Shown here: piece by piece, positions 3,359 through 33,662 of the stretch
Numbering within the stretch: position 1 is the first letter of the stretch
Layout: every line of letters starts with the position of its first letter
NCBI GenBank assembly: GCA_016930085.1
Contig: JAFGHO010000125.1
Location: forward strand, 1-64,000
Origin: Spirochaetales bacterium
GTDB lineage: Bacteria; Spirochaetota; Spirochaetia; SZUA-6; JAFGRV01
Direction: 5' to 3'
DNA length: 64,000 nucleotides
Position numbers and translations under genes: made by a program
The notes under the pieces: model-generated
Databases searched by the model: none
Seen by the model: the letters and a program-made list of their open reading frames with translations, nothing else
What the model was told of the DNA's origin: nothing

Positions 3359-5677
3359 ATGATCAGGAACAAATTGACATTCGGAATATTCATGAACCTT
3401 ATCGAAGGCAGATTCCAATCCGAAATCTGGATGGGGTTGAACAGTTTTTGCACAAAGAACAATATCGACCTCGTTATATTCAATGGAAAATTACTAAAAC
3501 CGTTTTACAAATATGACAATCAAAGCAATATCATTTACGAATATGTCAACAACAAGATCGTCGACGGGCTTGTGATCCCTTCGTTATTGTTTTTATTCGG
3601 TAAAAACAGGCAGGGTGTCGTTCAGTTTATCAGAAAATTCAAGAATTTGCCTGTCGTCAGTCTCGGTTTGCCGATTAACGGTCTGCTTAATGTCATGATC
3701 GATCAGAAGGCGGGCATGCGCAGCCTGTGCGAACATATCATCATCCACCACTCGGCCAAAAATATTTTGTTCATCTCGGGGCAGGAAAGCCATCCCGACG
3801 CGGTAATACGGCTCAATGTGTTAAAGAAAGTTCTCAAAGAAAACAATATGAAAATGAATCCCGATCTGTTGGGGTTCGGAAATTTCACCAGCAGATCGGC
3901 GGAAAAAATCGTACAAAACGTTATCGACAAAAACATCAAATTCGACGCAATTATCGCCGCGAATGACGAAATGGCGATCGGGGCGTATACGACCCTGCAA
4001 AACAACAATATCAAGGTACCGAAGGACGTTATTGTAACGGGGTTTGACGATATCGATGACATGAAATATCTGGTGCCGCCGTTCACGACGGTAAGGCAGC
4101 CTTTGTTCGAGATGGGTGAAAAAGCGGGAGAATTACTCCTGAAAAAAATAAATAATGAAATCATCTCCGGCAATGCGGTGGAGAGAGCGGAACTTGTCAT
4201 ACGGGAATCATGCGGATGTCTTTTGTTTTCCTCCAAAATAAATATTAATAACAATATACGCATAAACAAAAACAAGGAAACAATCGAATGTTTTTTAAAG
4301 GAAAAAAATCGTATAGTTCCTTATATGAAAAGCGTCTTGATGTCCGGCGAAGAAATAAATATCGATTATGACGATCTTTTGAACAGCTTTTTCGATATGT
4401 TCGTCAAGGATATTTCTTCGGAAAGTAACGCGGATATACTCGTCAAATATATTAATGATGTATTTATCCACAATATCATTATCGGGTCCCAGAATGTCTA
4501 CAACTGGAAACAGTCTCTGGAGATTATGAAGAATTTCATTTACAGAAATATCGATGCCGATTCCGGTGTGTCGTCCAGGATCGATGAAATATTTTATAAA
4601 ATCGACATGATGTTGTTGAAATTCACGCAACGCGCCGAATCGTATAAAAATTTCGTCATCGACAGGAATATCTGGGAACTGAGTCTGATTTTAAGGAGCA
4701 TTCGAACGGCTTCCAGATATTCGGAATTGAGAAATGCCGTTTACAATAATTTGAAGATTCTGGGTATAAAAACAGTATATATCTTTTTGTATGAAAAATT
4801 TTTCGAGAATTACCGGCAGCCTGACTTCAAAATTCCAAAAAAAGCCCAGTTATTTGTAAAATACGAACAGGTCAAGGAAGATCATGTCGAAAAAGGTTTT
4901 ATAAAAACGAATGAACTGCTTCCGCATGAAATATTTTCCGCGCGTGAGAAAAAGACCCTGCTTGTTTTCCCATTATGTTCGGAAATCGTACATTTCGGCT
5001 ATGTTGTGTATGAAATGAGTAATGTGGAAAACTTTATATACGAGTCCCTGACCGAACAGATTTCTTCAACCCTCTATAATATTTATCAACTTGACATGAG
5101 AAGACAGGCCGAGGACCAGTTGAGGGATGCGCTGGTGGAACTAAAGGCACTGAACAAGGAACTGCATAATCTGTCGGTAAGGGATGAGTTGACGGGCCTC
5201 TACAACAGACGCGGCCTTCTTTTAATTGGAGAAGAGCGGTTCAACAATACTAAATCCAACGAACGCTTTGCCATTTTATACGGCGATCTGGACGATCTTA
5301 AAGTCATCAATGACAGCTTCGGTCATACCGAAGGGGATTTCGCAATAAAAACCATCTCCGATATTCTGCGGAATACATTAAAATCCGCCGACATAGAAGG
5401 CAGACTGGGCGGGGATGAGTTTGTCGTGATTATCGACAATATCTCCGATGAAAATGATGTGGGTATCATCATCGAAAAGATACAAAAGAATATCGAAGCG
5501 TTTAATAAAGCCTCAAAAAAACCGTACAACCTCTCGATCACTTTCGGATATTCCATCTTTGACAAGAACAAATATATTGCATTTTCGCAGATGCTGAAAG
5601 AAGCCGATAAACGGTTGTATTCATTCAAAAAAAAGAAAAAGCCGGATTTCACGATTATCAAGACTAAAAAGAAATAA
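3359..5677 (+). CDS. Periplasmic-binding-like sensor fused to a diguanylate cyclase (GGDEF)
   Basis: The protein has 772 residues. Residues 1-285 resemble a LacI/GalR sugar-binding domain (Peripla_BP_3) without the DNA-binding headpiece, ending in the RESCGC segment often seen in such fusions. A GAF-like or undefined middle follows, then a coiled coil (about 575-605) and a GGDEF domain with intact GGDEF at 684-688. There is no signal peptide, so sensing is probably cytoplasmic. It should make cyclic di-GMP from GTP. The inhibitory I-site RxxD reads KSAD, so product inhibition may be lost. The ATG has no clear Shine-Dalgarno sequence; a 12-bp palindrome ATTAATATTAAT lies in the AT-rich upstream region. 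Confidence 0.88.
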   Translation: MIRNKLTFGIFMNLIEGRFQSEIWMGLNSFCTKNNIDLVIFNGKLLKPFYKYDNQSNIIYEYVNNKIVDGLVIPSLLFLFGKNRQGVVQFIRKFKNLPVVSLGLPINGLLNVMIDQKAGMRSLCEHIIIHHSAKNILFISGQESHPDAVIRLNVLKKVLKENNMKMNPDLLGFGNFTSRSAEKIVQNVIDKNIKFDAIIAANDEMAIGAYTTLQNNNIKVPKDVIVTGFDDIDDMKYLVPPFTTVRQPLFEMGEKAGELLLKKINNEIISGNAVERAELVIRESCGCLLFSSKININNNIRINKNKETIECFLKEKNRIVPYMKSVLMSGEEINIDYDDLLNSFFDMFVKDISSESNADILVKYINDVFIHNIIIGSQNVYNWKQSLEIMKNFIYRNIDADSGVSSRIDEIFYKIDMMLLKFTQRAESYKNFVIDRNIWELSLILRSIRTASRYSELRNAVYNNLKILGIKTVYIFLYEKFFENYRQPDFKIPKKAQLFVKYEQVKEDHVEKGFIKTNELLPHEIFSAREKKTLLVFPLCSEIVHFGYVVYEMSNVENFIYESLTEQISSTLYNIYQLDMRRQAEDQLRDALVELKALNKELHNLSVRDELTGLYNRRGLLLIGEERFNNTKSNERFAILYGDLDDLKVINDSFGHTEGDFAIKTISDILRNTLKSADIEGRLGGDEFVVIIDNISDENDVGIIIEKIQKNIEAFNKASKKPYNLSITFGYSIFDKNKYIAFSQMLKEADKRLYSFKKKKKPDFTIIKTKKK

Positions 5678-26170: not shown

Positions 26171-28066
26171 TCAGCAGAACTGGTAAATCAATCCCACCGA
26201 ATATTGCGCGATCAAAAGTGCGTCGACGATATTGATCTGTCCGTCGCAGTTGGTGTCCGCCCTGCTCTGATCGAAGTTCTGCGGATTAGCGCCCACGTAG
26301 AACTGCGCCGTAAGCAGCGCATCGACGATAGAGACTGAACCGTCGTTATTGACATCACCCAGAGCGCCTGCCGGCGGGTTCGTCCCGAAGGGTGGGTCCG
26401 TCATGAACGGGGGATTGGTCACGGTCGGCGGGTTTGTCACGACAGGGGGACTGGTCACGGTCGGCGGAGAAGTCGGTGAACCGCCCGAAGTCGCGAGAAG
26501 CTCGATCCCGTTTCCCGTCCCGAGGTTTCGCGAGTACTGCTTCGATTGCGGGTTGTTCCAATGCTCGTGAACACCCAGGCTTTGCAGAGACGATCCGTCG
26601 TTTTCAGGATCGTAGAAGGTTCCGGAGGGGGGGTTGTCAGCCTGCGCCGCTTCATGGAGATAATTATCGGCATTATCCCAGAGCGTCCATTCGCCATTGA
26701 GAAAATCCAGTGCGACCGAATCGATCGCCACGCCGTCCTGGGACATGAATATACTGGAAGGCCAGTCATTGTTGAAGGGAGCCATACTCCACCGTGTCGG
26801 GTTTCCGCTGATCTGTGGAGCGCCCCAGAGACCGTCGATAATAAAAAGAAGCGTTTTGCCACCGATTTCCCGATGCCCCAGAAGATCGACGAGACAGTTG
26901 TACGTTCCCATCCCGTTTCTATGGTCATTGATCGCCGTATGGATGTCACGACAGTTCTGGATCGATCCAAAGTGGTTTTTACCACATAAAGTGACCGCCG
27001 TTTCGCTTTCATGTTTTTTCAGCAGTGCGAGATTGATCAGGTATTCGGCGTCCCACAGGCACCGGGCGACGCGACGCGTCTGGGCATTCGATGAGGAGAT
27101 ACCCGAATAGGTGATGCCATTGTCCACCCACTGGACGGTCCCCACGGAACCCCAACCCATGGTCGCCTCAAACCGGACATTCGGATAGGCCTGCGACACG
27201 CAGGTGTACACATAATTTCCTATCGTGCCCACACCGCCGTCATAAACGACGATATTGTTTGCAGGCACCCCGGCATGCGAAACAAGTGATTCGACGACAG
27301 CCAGCACTGTTTCCGCCGTCGCGTCGATCGCGCTTCCCATTTTGTTCTGGGAGGATGTGTTGACCGTGTTTATTTTGATCGCGATCGTCTCGCCGCTGCT
27401 GTAGCCGGATGCCCCCCGGCCGTGATTCTGGTTAAAATACCGGAAAATCGCGTCCCACGCGCTCGATGCGTCCGATTCTCCGGCCAGGGTCATGACCGCG
27501 TCGGAGATCATCCGGTTTACCGCCTGCTGATTGGTATTACCCGACTGGTACCAGGAACCCGAAGGCGTGTCCGCCGTCGCGTCGGGATTGTGCGCCCATG
27601 CGACACGTCCCGGATTGATTCCCTTTGCCGTTCCGACGGGTGAATTGGCGGGATCGGCCGGATTCCAGTCCGCATAGACCACAGGCTGCTCGGCGATGAT
27701 CGTGTTGACCAGAGACGAGGTAAAAAGTCCCGCTCCGATGCAAAGTACCATATAGAAAAGCGCAGTCTTGACGCTCATCTTCTTTGTAAAGGCCTTGATT
27801 TTCTTGAAAAGGGTAAAAGAACCGAGAATTCCGGCAAGAAACGATATAAAACTCACACCGATGCCTGCCGCGATCCGCTGGCAGGGATATGCGGCCCGGC
27901 TTGGTTTTGGAACCGTTCGTATAAGGAACCAGACGATGGCGAGAATACCTATGACCGGAAGAAAAAACAGATGCTTTTTTTCCGACATCTTTACCGCGAT
28001 GATTTTCCCGGATTTCTTACATATTCGAAAATATTTTTTCATTATGTGCAGTATTGATCGATACAT
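26171..28066 (-). CDS. Membrane-anchored DUF362-domain protein with C-terminal dockerin
   Basis: The product has 631 residues, with AGAGG 7 nt before ATG 28066. Three hydrophobic helices (about 31-50, 64-90, 98-122) anchor it. Residues 130-545 contain the DUF362 pattern (IAIKINTVNTSS, AVVESLVSHAGVPANNIVVYDGG, LINLALLKKHESETAVTLCGKNHFGS, LFIIDGLWGA). A Ser/Thr/Pro linker (TNPP/TSPP repeats) leads to a dockerin (about 570-631): GDVNNDGSVSIVDALLTAQFYVG and DTNCDGQINIVDALLIAQYSVG. DUF362 proteins are uncharacterised; some have ferredoxin-like clusters, but none is seen here. With membrane helices and an outward dockerin, it could tether cohesin proteins to the cell. Confidence 0.85.
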   Translation of the reverse strand: MYRSILHIMKKYFRICKKSGKIIAVKMSEKKHLFFLPVIGILAIVWFLIRTVPKPSRAAYPCQRIAAGIGVSFISFLAGILGSFTLFKKIKAFTKKMSVKTALFYMVLCIGAGLFTSSLVNTIIAEQPVVYADWNPADPANSPVGTAKGINPGRVAWAHNPDATADTPSGSWYQSGNTNQQAVNRMISDAVMTLAGESDASSAWDAIFRYFNQNHGRGASGYSSGETIAIKINTVNTSSQNKMGSAIDATAETVLAVVESLVSHAGVPANNIVVYDGGVGTIGNYVYTCVSQAYPNVRFEATMGWGSVGTVQWVDNGITYSGISSSNAQTRRVARCLWDAEYLINLALLKKHESETAVTLCGKNHFGSIQNCRDIHTAINDHRNGMGTYNCLVDLLGHREIGGKTLLFIIDGLWGAPQISGNPTRWSMAPFNNDWPSSIFMSQDGVAIDSVALDFLNGEWTLWDNADNYLHEAAQADNPPSGTFYDPENDGSSLQSLGVHEHWNNPQSKQYSRNLGTGNGIELLATSGGSPTSPPTVTSPPVVTNPPTVTNPPFMTDPPFGTNPPAGALGDVNNDGSVSIVDALLTAQFYVGANPQNFDQSRADTNCDGQINIVDALLIAQYSVGLIYQFC

Positions 28067-28446: not shown

Positions 28447-30900
28447 ATGAAAGGTTATACAAAAAGCATGTTCTGTATGGTATTTATCATGATTTGTACG
28501 TTACTTTCCGCACAATCATGGCATATCGAGTACAAAACGCCGGATACCCATACACAGGAACAATGGATAAAGGCGTACTTTAAAATCTACAATGATTCGG
28601 GAACAACCGTCTCCTTATCCGATCTTACGATACGCTACTGGTACACGCCCGACGGTACGGCCGGGGATGTGTTCGGCTGCTGGTGGGCTCAGGCCGGGTC
28701 CGCGAATGTTACTGGTTCGTTCCAGGATATAACACCCCCCTTAACGGGCGCTGGCCGTTATTGTGAAATCGGATTTACGGCAGAAGCGGGAACGCTTTCA
28801 AGCGGTACCGATTCCGGTGAAATCCAGTGTGCCTGGCACGGGGCGGACTGGCGTACGTACGACGAGACGGACGATTACTCCCAGGACCACACACTCACCG
28901 CTTATACGACGTGGGACAGGGTGTGTCTCTATCTCGGCGGCGAGTCTGTCTGGGGTACGGAACCCGGTTCGGGACAGGATCCGACACCTGAAGTGACGCC
29001 GGAAACAACCACGACCACGACTCCGGAGAATACACCGACCCTTACGACTCCCGTGGATCCGACGCCGACCGAAACAGCGACACCGACGCCCTCCCCGACC
29101 CCGGAAGCGACCCCCGAACAGACCTCCGTCCCCGGAACGGGCACCGGGATCCTCCTCGAAGCCGAGGATTACACCGGATATTCCGATTCAACGGGCGGCA
29201 ATGAAGGGAACACCTACCGGACAGACGACGTCGATATCGAACCGTGCGCCGAAGGCGGCTACAATGTCGGCTGGATCACTGACGGGGAATGGCTTCAGTA
29301 CGATCTGGCTGTCGATGCTTCGGATATCTTTATCGTCTACGTCCGTGTGGCGAGTCCGCTTGGAAAAACCGACGGTTTTTACATCGAACTCGACGGTACC
29401 GACGTCACCGGACCGGTTGAAATTCCCAACACCGGCGCGTGGCAAAGCTGGCAGGACAGCGTTATCGGGGGTATTCCCATAAGCGCCGGAGTCCATACGC
29501 TTCGAATCGTGATGCACGGGGATTTCAACTTTAACTTTATCTATCTCGCTTCGGAAACCATGCCTCCCGGACCTACCGAACCGCCCGGGGCATTACCCAC
29601 CTCCACCCCCCCGCCGGGTTATGTCAGTGCCGTCAGCCGATTCGGCAGCCTTCAGGTATCGGGAACACAACTTTCCGACCAGAACGGGAATCCGGTACGC
29701 CTCAAGGGAATGTGTTCCCACGGACTTCAGTGGTTCCCGTTCATGAAGGAACACACGATTCACAACCTCGTCTATGACTGGAATATCCAGGTCATCCGCC
29801 CGGCCATGTATATCGAAGACTATAAAAACGGGGATTACTGGGGCGGATACATCGCGCAGCCCGAATACATGAAAAACAAATTGATCGAGATGATCGACGA
29901 CGCCCTTGACGCGGGTATCTATATCCTCATTGACTGGCACATTCATAACGATCCGACGAACTTTACATCGGAATCCCTTGCCTTTTTCGAGGAAATGGCG
30001 GCCGACTACGGATCGTATCCAAACATTATCTATGAAATCTGCAATGAACCGGAGAATGTCTCATGGTCCACGGTAAAATCGTACGCAACCGTCATCATCC
30101 CCGCCATCAGGGCGATCGATCCTGACAATATCATCATCGTCGGGACCCAGAACTGGTGCCAGGACCTCGACGTGGCAGCAGACGACCCCCTTACCGGGTA
30201 CACGAACATCATGTACGCCCTCCACTTCTACGCAGGGACCCATTATCAGTCTATCAGGGACAAGGCCGATTACGCCCTCAACAGCGGACTGCCGGTCATC
30301 GTCTCCGAATGGGGGACAAGCGATTCGACCGGCGGTTCGAACGGCGTTACCTATTTCCCCGAATCCGATGTGTGGGTCGACTGGATGAACCAGAGGAACC
30401 TCACCTGGATCAACTGGAACTTCAGCAATAAATCCGAATCATCGGCGGCACTGAAAGCGGATGCGAATATCGGCGGCCCGTGGGACGATGCCGATCTTAC
30501 CGCATCGGGGCTGTACATTAAAACCCTCATGCTTTCGGACGACCCCGAGCCGACCCCCACACCAACCACTCCGCCGGAACCAACTTCCACCACTCCGCCG
30601 GAACCAACTCCAACGTCACCGCCTGATCCGACCCCCACACCGCAGACGGGCGAAACCTGCACCCCGGGTTCTTCAATCACTCCGGATTTTGTCTACGATG
30701 GGACGGGCGACCATTGCTGGGAAGCGGCCTCGCTGGGGAATTATATCAATTCATGGAACCTCTCCGTTCTCGAAGTCAACGGGGTCGATCTGACCAACCA
30801 GTACGCAGGTGCGGAAAGTCTTCCGCCGAAAATCGACGGCAAGTACTATGTCCGCTACAAATGTTCAGTAAGCTGGGGTCATTTCGAAGCCAAAAATTAA
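28447..30900 (+). CDS. Multi-domain GH5 endoglucanase with CBM3 and CBM6 modules
   Basis: This 817-residue secreted enzyme has a signal peptide (1-22). An N-terminal CBM3 (about 24-176, WHIEYKT..., IRYWYTPDG) binds crystalline cellulose. A Thr/Pro/Glu linker follows, then a CBM6-like module (about 237-373, LEAEDY, NVGWITDGEWLQYDL). The catalytic GH5 domain spans about 395-700: LKGMCSHGLQWF, acid/base E534 in EICNEPE and nucleophile E621 in VSEWGT. A second Pro/Thr linker precedes a C-terminal module of about 75 residues (GSSITPDFVYDGTGDHCWEA, GKYYVRYKC) whose family I do not recognise; it is probably carbohydrate-binding. There is no dockerin, unlike the GH12 enzyme. Confidence 0.95.
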   Translation: MKGYTKSMFCMVFIMICTLLSAQSWHIEYKTPDTHTQEQWIKAYFKIYNDSGTTVSLSDLTIRYWYTPDGTAGDVFGCWWAQAGSANVTGSFQDITPPLTGAGRYCEIGFTAEAGTLSSGTDSGEIQCAWHGADWRTYDETDDYSQDHTLTAYTTWDRVCLYLGGESVWGTEPGSGQDPTPEVTPETTTTTTPENTPTLTTPVDPTPTETATPTPSPTPEATPEQTSVPGTGTGILLEAEDYTGYSDSTGGNEGNTYRTDDVDIEPCAEGGYNVGWITDGEWLQYDLAVDASDIFIVYVRVASPLGKTDGFYIELDGTDVTGPVEIPNTGAWQSWQDSVIGGIPISAGVHTLRIVMHGDFNFNFIYLASETMPPGPTEPPGALPTSTPPPGYVSAVSRFGSLQVSGTQLSDQNGNPVRLKGMCSHGLQWFPFMKEHTIHNLVYDWNIQVIRPAMYIEDYKNGDYWGGYIAQPEYMKNKLIEMIDDALDAGIYILIDWHIHNDPTNFTSESLAFFEEMAADYGSYPNIIYEICNEPENVSWSTVKSYATVIIPAIRAIDPDNIIIVGTQNWCQDLDVAADDPLTGYTNIMYALHFYAGTHYQSIRDKADYALNSGLPVIVSEWGTSDSTGGSNGVTYFPESDVWVDWMNQRNLTWINWNFSNKSESSAALKADANIGGPWDDADLTASGLYIKTLMLSDDPEPTPTPTTPPEPTSTTPPEPTPTSPPDPTPTPQTGETCTPGSSITPDFVYDGTGDHCWEAASLGNYINSWNLSVLEVNGVDLTNQYAGAESLPPKIDGKYYVRYKCSVSWGHFEAKN

Positions 30901-30911
30901 GACAATTGTCG

Positions 30912-30942
30912 TACAAAGGCAGCCTGAACGGCTGCCTTTGTA
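30912..30942 (+). terminator. Intrinsic terminator after the GH5 gene
   Basis: A perfect 13-bp stem (30912-30924 with 30930-30942) around a TGAAC loop, core GGCAGCC/GGCTGCC. It shares the core sequence of the GH12 terminator. A 10-bp palindrome GACAATTGTC (30901-30910) lies between the stop codon and the stem. Confidence 0.8.
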
Positions 30943-30984: not shown

Positions 30985-31011
30985 AAAAACACTTGCACCG
31001 TAAGTGTTTTT
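30985..31011 (+). terminator. Second hairpin upstream of the SiaB-like gene
   Basis: A 10-bp stem (AAAAACACTT 30985-30994 with AAGTGTTTTT 31002-31011) and a 7-nt loop, ending in T. It sits 22 nt before ATG 31034, so it may be a second terminator or a leader element of the signalling operon. Confidence 0.5.
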
Positions 31012-31033: not shown

Positions 31034-31588
31034 ATGATCAATGACCTCCATACATTCAAAGACGGAATACAAAAAAGCGGTATCATCTGCTGCTTTACCG
31101 GGCCGTTCACACAGGACCTGCTGATCGGGATCGGTGCGACAATCAAGAGAAAAATGGAACTCGAAGGCGAACACACGAGGATTATCCTCGATCTGTTCTC
31201 CGTGCTTGTCGAGGAAACACAGAACATCATCCATCACTCCGCGGAACGCACCCCCAACCTCCCCTCCTCACCGGAAAAACAGACACTCGCATGCGGTATC
31301 ATCGTCGTCGGCAAAGAAAATCACCGCTATTATATCCAGGGCGGCAATTACATCGATAACGACAGGATAGCGGCGATCCGGGAGAAACTGGATGCCCTCG
31401 GCCATATGAGTAGAAAGGAACTGGATACCTATTATAAAAAACAGCGAAGGCAGAAATCCGTGAACAAAACCCAGAAGGCCGGTCTCGGTTTTATCGAAGT
31501 CGCCCGAAAGGTGAGTAAACCAATCGAATATACCTTCAAGAAAATAGACAACGCTCGTTCTTTTTTTTCATTTATCGCGACTATATAA
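31034..31588 (+). CDS. SiaB-family protein kinase (DUF6272)
   Basis: A 184-residue protein resembling SiaB of Pseudomonas, a GHKL-type kinase that phosphorylates the partner protein SiaC. Visible pattern: IICCFTGPFTQDLLIGIG near the N-terminus, the ATP-site helix RIILDLFSVLVEETQNIIHHS (E..QN), and CGIIVVGKENHRYYIQGGNYID. The gene lies 11 bp before a SiaC homologue, and a hybrid kinase follows; in Pseudomonas the neighbours are a PP2C phosphatase (SiaA) and a diguanylate cyclase (SiaD), not seen here. Only a weak GGGA precedes the ATG. Confidence 0.82.
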   Translation: MINDLHTFKDGIQKSGIICCFTGPFTQDLLIGIGATIKRKMELEGEHTRIILDLFSVLVEETQNIIHHSAERTPNLPSSPEKQTLACGIIVVGKENHRYYIQGGNYIDNDRIAAIREKLDALGHMSRKELDTYYKKQRRQKSVNKTQKAGLGFIEVARKVSKPIEYTFKKIDNARSFFSFIATI

Positions 31589-31599
31589 AGGAAAGAAAT

Positions 31600-31992
31600 A
31601 TGGAAAATCTTGTTATCAAAGCAACAAAGTGTACGCCCCGTATCGTGTTCGACAGCGAACACGCATCTCTCGAGATCAGCGGTGTGTCGTATCCCGAAAA
31701 CACCTCGGCGTTCTACACCCCCGTATTCGAATGGCTGAACACCTTTATGGCGACGCCAAAAATCGGAAAAGTGAATGTGCGGCTTGAAATAGAATATTTC
31801 AACAGCAGCTCATCCAAGATACTTCTCGATTTCTTCGATATCCTCGATGAGGCCGCGGGCGGGGGAAAGAAAATCACCGTTTACTGGGTGTATGACAGCC
31901 GTAACCAGCAGGCCCTTCAATACGGAATCGAGTTCAAGGAGGACATCAACCACCTCGATTTCCATATCACCTGCAAGGACGCAAACGAATGA
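31600..31992 (+). CDS. SiaC-family regulatory phosphoprotein (DUF1987)
   Basis: A 130-residue protein with the DUF1987 pattern: TPRIVFDSEHASLEISGVSYPENTSAFY, then LEIEYFNSSSSKILLDFFDIL and VYWVYDSRNQQALQYGIEF. In Pseudomonas, SiaC is phosphorylated by SiaB on a Thr in this loop and, when unphosphorylated, binds and activates a diguanylate cyclase. Here the loop has four Ser (69-72), so phosphorylation on Ser is expected. AAAGGAAAG precedes the ATG. Its stop overlaps the start of the hybrid kinase by 4 bp (ATGA), indicating translational coupling. Confidence 0.85.
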   Translation: MENLVIKATKCTPRIVFDSEHASLEISGVSYPENTSAFYTPVFEWLNTFMATPKIGKVNVRLEIEYFNSSSSKILLDFFDILDEAAGGGKKITVYWVYDSRNQQALQYGIEFKEDINHLDFHITCKDANE

Positions 31993-33662
31993 AAGCTTCG
32001 GGCGCGCTTTTTTCCGGTGAAGAAGCCGTTATCCGCGAATGCACAGCGATATTGAAAGAAAAAAAAAGCGAAAAGACGATCCGGCGAGAAGCGTATGAGA
32101 CCCTCTTCCGCCACTATGAAAAGCTTTATAAAAAAATGAAACGCCTCGTCAGTCTTTCCGACGGTCAGCAGGCGGCGTTACAGAAATCGAACGAAACCAT
32201 CACCGCACAGCGTGAAAGCCTCAAACGGCTCGACAGGGAAAAGACCGATTTTTTCATCAACCTCGCCCATGAAATCAAGACCCCCCTCACACTGATAAAA
32301 AACTACCTCAACAAATACATTAGTGAAAAAGGACCGGACGGCGACCTCGATCTCGTCAGAAGGAACTTTGAAAAACTCATCCGCGATATCGTCAATGTAA
32401 TGGATTTCGAGAAAGTCGAAGGGGGCGGTCCGCTCTACGATCACAGCCCGATTATCAACCTGAGTGACCTGGTGAACATGAAAACGGCATTGTTCATCGA
32501 ACTCGCCCGTGGAAAAAACATTTCAATGACGGCCGATATCACGGAGGGCCTCTATGTTCAAATGGACCCGGCGGCGGCCGAGCGTATCATCAACAACCTT
32601 GTCGAAAACGCGATCAAATATACCGATCCGGGCGGCTCAATCCGTGTGTCGCTATGGGGAAAAGAAAACGACGTTCTTTTCGGGGTCAGGGACACCGGGA
32701 CCGGTATTCCAAAGGATTGTCTTGATACGATTTTCAGGCCGTACTACCAGCTGTCCCACAGAAAGAGAAGTTCCCGGGGCATCGGTATGGGATTGAACAT
32801 CGTCAAAAAAATAACGGAAGAAGCGGGCGGAGACATTACCGTACAAAGCAAGGAAGGAAAGGGCAGCGAGTTCGTCATCAGACTGCCCGGCCAGCCCCCC
32901 TCTCCCGATGCCGTGGAAACCGGACCGCTTGAACGCGATATCCACGCCCGTTTCCGAAAAAAACCGAAGGCCGCAACAGAATCGATCGTAAAGGGGAGGC
33001 GGACCCTCCTCATCGTCGAAGACAACGCGGACCTCCTTTCGTTCCTTGCCGAACGGCTGGGCGAAACTTATAACGTTTTCTGTGCGTCAAACGGCAGGGC
33101 GGCAATGGAGAAACTCTCCCGTATCGCCCGGCCGGATCTGATCCTTTCCGATATCATGATGGACGAAATGGACGGGTATGCATTGTATGAAGCGCTAAAA
33201 AGAAAACCCGCATTCAAAGCGGTCCCGTTCATTTTCATAACGGCCAGAACGTCGCAGCGGGAAAAAATAGAGGCGATCGCCCGCGGCGCGGTGGATTATA
33301 TCAACAAACCCTTCGATATCGAGGAACTCGCTGCGAAAATCTCGGCGCTTATCGGTCTGGCAGAAGCAAAAAAGCACGAGAGCGAATCCGCAGTCGAAAA
33401 AAGGATCATCGACGCGATCCGTCACGGTAAAAACGAAGAGGACGAACGCTATCGCTTCGAGGAAAATTGCCGCAGGTTCGGCCTGACGGCGAGGGAGAAG
33501 GAAATCGCATTGCTTTTACTCGAAGGCAAAGAAGACAAGGAAGCGGCGTACGCCATGCATATCTCCTACAATACGGAACGGACCCACGTGAAGCACATCT
33601 ATGAAAAATGCGGGGTCCAGAACAAGGTCGAACTGGTCAACCTTCTGAAAGGCAGGGGGTAA
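31989..33662 (+). CDS. Hybrid histidine kinase with receiver and LuxR-type output
   Basis: The protein has 557 residues and no membrane segment. A coiled N-terminus (about 25-85) leads to HisKA with H94 in NLAHEIKTPL, a HATPase (N203/N207, DTGTGI, GIGMGLNIVKK), a receiver (340-455; VEDN, phospho-acceptor D388, K440) and a LuxR-type helix-turn-helix at 485-557 (LTAREKEIALLLLEGKEDKEAA). Kinase, receiver and DNA-binding output are thus fused in one soluble chain. With no own sensor domain, input may come from the co-transcribed SiaB/SiaC-like pair through the N-terminal coil. Regulated genes are unknown. Confidence 0.88.
   Translation: MKASGALFSGEEAVIRECTAILKEKKSEKTIRREAYETLFRHYEKLYKKMKRLVSLSDGQQAALQKSNETITAQRESLKRLDREKTDFFINLAHEIKTPLTLIKNYLNKYISEKGPDGDLDLVRRNFEKLIRDIVNVMDFEKVEGGGPLYDHSPIINLSDLVNMKTALFIELARGKNISMTADITEGLYVQMDPAAAERIINNLVENAIKYTDPGGSIRVSLWGKENDVLFGVRDTGTGIPKDCLDTIFRPYYQLSHRKRSSRGIGMGLNIVKKITEEAGGDITVQSKEGKGSEFVIRLPGQPPSPDAVETGPLERDIHARFRKKPKAATESIVKGRRTLLIVEDNADLLSFLAERLGETYNVFCASNGRAAMEKLSRIARPDLILSDIMMDEMDGYALYEALKRKPAFKAVPFIFITARTSQREKIEAIARGAVDYINKPFDIEELAAKISALIGLAEAKKHESESAVEKRIIDAIRHGKNEEDERYRFEENCRRFGLTAREKEIALLLLEGKEDKEAAYAMHISYNTERTHVKHIYEKCGVQNKVELVNLLKGRG

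Follow-up and report, generated by a model that had tools for sequence, protein, structure and literature searches.

Within a 64,000-nucleotide stretch of a Spirochaetales bacterium genome (assembly GCA_016930085.1, contig JAFGHO010000125.1, positions 1 to 64,000; hereafter the window), three genes encode relatives of the SiaB and SiaC proteins of Pseudomonas aeruginosa and a histidine kinase with its own DNA-binding domain, and we found that this kinase carries a predicted docking site for SiaC. Open reading frame (ORF) and family scans, which recover all three genes given for 31034-33662 in a preliminary description, place a SiaB-family protein kinase (DUF6272; siaB, 31034..31588, 184 residues), a SiaC-family phosphoprotein (DUF1987; siaC, 31600..31992, 130 residues) and a stalk-HisKA-HATPase-REC-LuxR hybrid histidine kinase (31989..33662, 557 residues) on the + strand, as are all features listed below. 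The siaC stop and the kinase start share the ATGA at 31989-31992, and siaB and siaC are separated by 11 bases, so that, in the locus described earlier as translationally coupled, the siaC-kinase junction is the only one with an overlap. Together, siaB, siaC and the kinase gene make up one operon, in a source genome (5.36 Mb, 135 contigs, about 96% complete) that has a single SiaC and one clear SiaB.

The SiaB protein scores 168.7 bits with NF038262 (cut-off 85) and 132.8 bits with PF19788, matches 6kko_A, the chain paired with SiaC in that structure, with an E value of 1.1e-20, and has E60 aligned to E61, the predicted catalytic residue of P. aeruginosa SiaB as given in PMC7647112. SiaC reaches 136.7 bits with PF09345 (cut-off 24.5) and matches 6kko_C/6k4f_U at E 1e-19. 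Both miss the cut-offs of the NCBI Pseudomonas equivalogs (SiaB, 107.9 versus 225 bits; SiaC, 105.7 versus 150 bits), so we regard them as family members and not as orthologues called by these models. The locus is not SiaABCD proper, which combines those equivalogs with a GGDEF target; it has the parts of a SiaB/SiaC module, namely a SiaB kinase above the family cut-off, a SiaC with a Ser/Thr phosphosite and, as candidate target, a kinase with a stalk motif.

By alignment and residue check, S69 of the window SiaC (codon 31804..31806) is the counterpart of T68, which in P. aeruginosa is both the phosphosite and a contact to the stalk of the target (PMC8457831, PMC7647112). This serine had been singled out as standing in place of threonine; the residue itself is confirmed, but we reject it as a special feature, since 77 of the 79 SiaC loci that we fetched read Ser at this position, the remaining two lying outside the pattern used. 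Two of the five rows of the query alignment have Ser, which may favour Ser loci. The ten Spirochaetota SiaC sequences that fit the pattern comprise seven with Thr and three with Ser. Two SiaC genes flank one SiaB gene in loci L018, L027, L028, L064 and L068.

The catalytic and output domains of the kinase are ordinary. It has a HATPase_c domain (residues 193-301, 32565..32891; PF02518, 101.8 bits), a receiver (REC) domain (residues 341-451, 33009..33341; PF00072, 83.9 bits) with D388 in LSDIMM, kept in a relative, and a LuxR/GerE helix-turn-helix (residues 499-551, 33483..33641; PF00196, 43.2 bits, and 49.3 bits in the relative). HATPase_c, Response_reg and GerE exceed their cut-offs and HisKA (85-144) falls slightly under its own (24.9 versus 26.9). 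The motifs HEIKTP at 94, NLVENA at 203, DTGTGI at 235, GIGMGL at 264, LSDIMMDEMDGY at 386 (with D388) and NTERTHVK at 528 supply the H-box, N and G boxes, receiver Asp and helix-turn-helix of a hybrid histidine kinase with a LuxR output. No transmembrane stretch is evident in the kinase (highest 19-residue hydropathy, 1.15), consistent with its description as a soluble protein with a DNA-binding output, but its supposedly missing sensor appears to be the SiaC dock.

Ahead of the stalk, the predicted structure has two short N-terminal helices (residues 4-7 and 9-24, 31998..32060), and short N-terminal helices are likewise described for the diguanylate cyclase SiaD (PMC8457831). In the AlphaFold2 model of the kinase, a single helix, residues 31-112, spans the stalk motif through H94, the phospho-acceptor in the H-box HEIKTP (codon 32268..32270), which lies 37 residues past S57 on this unbroken helix. 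Since the same helix carries the predicted dock and H94, docking of SiaC would be well placed to set the state of the kinase.

In P. aeruginosa, SiaC is described as binding SiaD at two similar motifs of its long helical stalk, where T68 inserts between two stalk helices and bonds with S82 and Q86 (S50 and Q54 in the other motif); docking activates SiaD via dimer stabilisation, and phosphorylation of T68 blocks the binding (PMC8457831). Searched against the PDB as a single sequence, the kinase N-terminus yielded chance matches only (Cas12k, E 7.9), so a profile was needed, for which we used 22 aligned stalk segments (of 25 collected), the window's own and those of 21 SiaC-neighbour proteins of other genomes picked by an SD..Q pattern, with no SiaD among them. 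Against 177,635 PDB sequences, this profile found SiaD (7e6g_A) as its top match (E 6.4e-5), and no other match fell below 0.39. The SiaD match covers chain residues 65-99 and, weakly, 43-56, including the contacts S82/Q86 and S50/Q54, and the invariant columns of the profile are Y, S, D and Q, the last three being SiaD contact residues.

On the kinase, the profile marks residues 38-74 (32100..32210; E 6.8e-15) as the predicted SiaC-docking stalk motif. Its core SDGQQ (S57-Q61, 32157..32171) aligns to S82-Q86 of SiaD, S57, D58 and Q61 being identical to S82, D83 and Q86, and G59 to G52 of the first SiaD motif. When the rows of the window and a close relative were left out of the profile, the kinase still scored 35.6 bits, whereas the runner-up among the window ORFs reached 2.2 and the highest of 5000 shuffles 11.5. 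The next match in the source genome after the kinase has an E value of 0.037 and lies deep inside a response-regulator/GGDEF protein on C5, and was dismissed as chance. These results support the prediction that the kinase N-terminus is a SiaC dock built on the same stalk as that of SiaD.

Mapping the stalk across 392 Spirochaetota genomes, we found it in 12 (E 0.001 or better), and SiaC in 26, 20 of them with strong matches (E below 1e-30). All 12 stalk genomes lie among the 20 with strong SiaC (hypergeometric 4e-16 against the 26, a value to be read with the caveats that genomes of the same phylum are not independent, though the 12 span 11 genera, and that the source genome, represented in the profile, is one of the 12). 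The stalk lies within about 1.5 kb of SiaC in 10 of the 12 and on a separate contig in the other two (G232 and G272). Moreover, among 61 relatives, the stalk is found in six genomes, comprising all five with strong SiaC and G002.

We also surveyed 79 SiaC loci, drawn from the best 80 of 366 matches in one scan for SiaC relatives, and found that 53 of them hold 55 stalk ORFs, 42 of which share the strand of SiaC and lie less than 200 bases from it. Adding the window and three Spirochaetota loci gives 59 stalk proteins: 32 with GGDEF, 5 with class III cyclase and 5 with HD domains, 4 hybrid kinases, 2 hybrid kinases with LuxR (window and L017), 4 CheA-like proteins, 5 other HATPase proteins and 2 unassigned ones, including a PP2C phosphatase (L021); these domains were called with small custom profiles, and submitted representatives were confirmed with Pfam. 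What is broadly kept is SiaB-SiaC together with a stalk protein, whose output is variable.

Other SiaC-linked proteins with the stalk-HisKA-HATPase-REC arrangement are encoded at L041, L089, L169, L058 and L051. Counted from the position of the stalk Ser (Asn in L089), the phospho-acceptor His follows after 37, 37, 37, 23 and 23 residues in five SiaC-linked kinases, the two spacings differing by 14 residues, or two heptads. The 997-residue protein of L058 (3994-6987) joins a stalk, HisKA, HATPase, two REC domains and Hpt to a C-terminal SiaB domain, so that this fusion ties the switch to histidine kinases; its gene directly precedes those of SiaC and a stalk-GGDEF protein. These five and the CheA-like proteins of L024, L025, L029 and L031 share the SiaC neighbourhood and the N-terminal stalk with the window kinase; unlike it, these proteins of other lineages end in REC, Hpt, SiaB or CheX-like domains, and none in LuxR. 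Two loci of the archaeon Methanospirillum (L079 and L093) hold SiaC and a stalk-HATPase protein, with a weak stalk match.

The exact siaB-siaC-kinase order with the same domains, including LuxR, is found in two genomes of the family, the window's and G004 (L013; L017 gives the same proteins and is counted once). The two kinases are 53% identical, with S57, D58, Q60 and Q61 invariant, and the one of G004 lacks 14 residues between stalk and HisKA. Conservation of the three-gene order, which had been proposed as a check on the locus, is thus seen in a second genome but is narrow.

With a SiaD-type stalk on the kinase, stalks on other SiaC-linked kinases and a recurring triad, these findings support the earlier suggestion of a rewired partner switch feeding into transcription, and we consider it probable that SiaB and SiaC here form a partner switch with a DNA-binding histidine kinase as its target. 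Because a DNA-binding kinase carries the SiaD-type docking stalk, this switch probably controls transcription. Unphosphorylated SiaC would dock on the coiled-coil stalk (residues 38-74) of the kinase dimer, upstream of H94 on the same helix, and would from this position set the kinase state, hence phosphorylation of the kinase's own receiver and binding of its LuxR domain to the DNA of its presumed target genes. As modelled on SiaABCD, SiaB would phosphorylate S69 of SiaC, causing a clash in the stalk groove and so freeing SiaC, and a PP2C phosphatase encoded elsewhere, for which a protein on C134 is the best candidate (see below), would reverse this phosphorylation.

By analogy with SiaD, docking would be activating. 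The switch may also run in reverse, with docking inhibiting the kinase or favouring its phosphatase state and phosphorylation by SiaB turning the output on; a coiled-coil input can put a histidine kinase in either state, and the sequence does not fix the sign. We judge this reverse sign less likely than activation, though a serious rival, as SiaC docking activates SiaD, by stabilising its dimer, in the account of PMC8457831. A different explanation is that SiaC here keeps as its target a diguanylate cyclase or some other enzyme encoded elsewhere, the kinase being merely a co-transcribed regulator of the operon. In its favour, the SiaC target in Pseudomonas is the cyclase SiaD (PMC8457831), 32 of the 59 stalk proteins near SiaC have GGDEF domains and the source genome encodes GGDEF proteins, such as the one at 3359-5677 of the window. 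However, the latter, which had been named as the rival partner of SiaC, is a periplasmic-binding-protein/GGDEF sensor absent from the stalk matches, the stalk profile found no second convincing stalk protein in the roughly 96% complete source genome, and the kinase itself bears the stalk, making a cyclase partner elsewhere improbable. Similarly improbable is the idea that the stalk is a generic dimerising coiled coil whose likeness to SiaD reflects heptad bias and not SiaC binding: the stalk is predicted to be helical and many kinases have signalling helices at its position, yet the many coiled-coil proteins of the PDB yielded only SiaD below E 0.39, the 12 of 392 genomes matched all have SiaC, though such genomes carry many kinases, and the invariant columns Y, S, D and Q include the S, D and Q of the SiaD contacts.

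Several observations weigh against a SiaC-kinase switch of this kind. Some contact positions are altered on both sides of the proposed interface, R103 to Q, I71 to S and L107 to Y in SiaC, and D91 to K and R80 to S in the stalk of the kinase as compared with SiaD. No stalk ORF was seen in 26 of the 79 SiaC loci within the DNA stretch examined, and the adjacency counts from this survey are descriptive and partly circular because the profile rows were chosen among SiaC neighbours; more independent tests of the stalk are the PDB search, the 392-genome co-occurrence and the profile without the window and its relative. Eight of the 20 strong-SiaC Spirochaetota genomes lack a stalk at E 0.001; in three of these, a weaker one lies next to SiaC, and no stalk is seen on some SiaC-linked cyclases. 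Conversely, G002 encodes a stalk-class III cyclase protein (L123, G002:C32, ORF 4496-5542; cyclase assigned by eye), and no SiaC was found in this genome. The spacing of 55 residues in L058 breaks the two-heptad rule, which is inapplicable to L051, where a PAS domain sits between the stalk and the His. Finally, the AlphaFold2 model of the kinase was built from 6 sequences, with a mean predicted local distance difference test (pLDDT) of 73 and a predicted template modelling score (pTM) of 0.39.

No PP2C gene adjoins the triad. The source genome has 20 PP2C domains, of which the one on C134 scores 218.6 bits with the SiaA model, versus 84.9 for the next, a score under the cut-off of 700 and from a match limited to the PP2C part. 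With its six hydrophobic stretches, the C134 protein is a membrane protein, and it combines HisKA, HATPase, a receiver and a PP2C domain that has GD, DxxGHG and DD motifs. A SiaA-like match at 1e-40 is found in six of the 61 relatives (source genome, G037, G040, G051, G052 and G036), many genomes being scored on their best 16 candidates only. It lies near SiaC in G037, G040 and G051, which are SiaC genomes, covers profile positions 15-405, outside the PP2C part, in G052, and reaches 140.8 bits in G036; its co-occurrence with SiaC is not tight, as G004 has none. G000, the source genome, and G004 each have one copy of a 230-residue N-terminal stretch of the C134 protein, and a search of three other family genomes did not find it. 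The G004 copy lies some 5.6 kb from siaB on the contig that carries SiaB and SiaC, whose end cuts the gene within HisKA, and a search for its continuation with the REC-PP2C half gave no clear match. Since the N-terminal stretch is found in both triad genomes, few as these are, it suggests that the C134 protein is the SiaA equivalent, and this unlinked membrane kinase-REC-PP2C protein is our best candidate for SiaA.

A second operon of the source genome (L016, G000:C104:40000-57000) encodes a distant SiaB-like protein, an slr1659-like protein, a PP2C phosphatase and a CheA-like kinase, and a similar gene order is seen at L015 in G001. This operon appears to be a partner switch of its own, akin to slr1658/slr1659. 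We rejected its SiaB-like gene as part of the SiaC switch, as it is in another operon and fits the slr1658/slr1659 superfamilies better, at scores below the cut-offs of these superfamilies.

One-protein two-component systems, such as the Bacteroides hybrid two-component systems (HTCS), have kinase, receiver and helix-turn-helix in one chain, as does the window kinase, which differs from them in having no membrane or periplasmic sensor, an input expected via a partner protein and a LuxR in place of an AraC domain. RsbV/RsbW-type switches work by partner exchange of a STAS-like protein phosphorylated on Ser/Thr, a trait shared with the proposed switch of the window and with the HsbR-HsbA-HsbD switch mentioned in PMC8457831. 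In contrast to both, the window proteins belong to DUF1987 and DUF6272, and the proposed target is a histidine kinase and not a sigma/anti-sigma factor or diguanylate cyclase. As in the known P. aeruginosa system SiaABCD (SiaA, PP2C phosphatase; SiaB, kinase; SiaC; SiaD, diguanylate cyclase; PMC8457831, PMC7647112), a single operon of the window encodes homologues of SiaB and SiaC along with a proposed target that bears the stalk; also shared are the S/D/Q contacts in the stalk motif, and short N-terminal helices followed by a long stalk helix. Unlike SiaABCD, the window system has a HisKA-HATPase-REC-LuxR and not a GGDEF output; its stalk shows a single recognisable motif where SiaD has two, SiaA is not linked, the phosphosite is Ser in place of Thr, and the SiaB and SiaC scores do not reach the NCBI equivalog cut-offs.

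SiaC switches as such are already known. What is likely new, within the open-licence literature, is the finding that probable SiaC targets of many kinds, histidine kinases included, can be recognised by the stalk motif of SiaD, here on a kinase with its own DNA-binding domain; we found no prior description there of the stalk on other outputs or kinases. The eLife 2021 paper on SiaC-SiaD, where it touches on the widespread DUF1987 proteins, left their role elsewhere open and suggested modulation of adjacent proteins (PMC8457831). As a sequence rule that names the SiaC target and its contact residues, the stalk motif makes this question testable gene by gene. We tentatively propose, at slightly less than even odds, that the SiaC stalk is a general plug-in dock to many outputs (GGDEF, class III cyclase, HD, PP2C, CheA-like and hybrid histidine kinases), which here would link two phosphorelay proteins through SiaB-SiaC as the switch, a membrane kinase-REC-PP2C protein as input phosphatase and the soluble kinase-REC-LuxR protein as transcriptional output. 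If so, His-Asp signalling would pass through a Ser-phosphate step and back. As the motif indicates, a Ser/Thr partner switch would reach histidine kinases directly, a DNA-binding one in this lineage, and transcription would become an output of a system described for cyclic di-GMP (PMC8457831, PMC7647112).

Around the operon, scans found 6 promoter-like sites versus a shuffle mean of 3.4 (standard deviation 1.7) and 4 terminator-like sites versus 5.0 in shuffles, from which we draw no inference. By eye, a 10-bp perfect inverted repeat lies at 30985-31011 (AAAAACACTT, 7-base loop, AAGTGTTTTT), upstream of the siaB start at 31034, and is a possible operator or hairpin. Another perfect hairpin, of 11 bp and without a T run, was seen by eye at 30914-30940, between a cellulase-like gene ending at 30900 and siaB; its position ahead of siaB suggests that the triad is a separate transcription unit. 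In both triad genomes, a large, probably secreted protein is encoded near the triad (window 26171-28066; L013 2142-4967), each ending in two dockerin-like repeats (DVNxDG...DALLIAQ; family assigned by eye).

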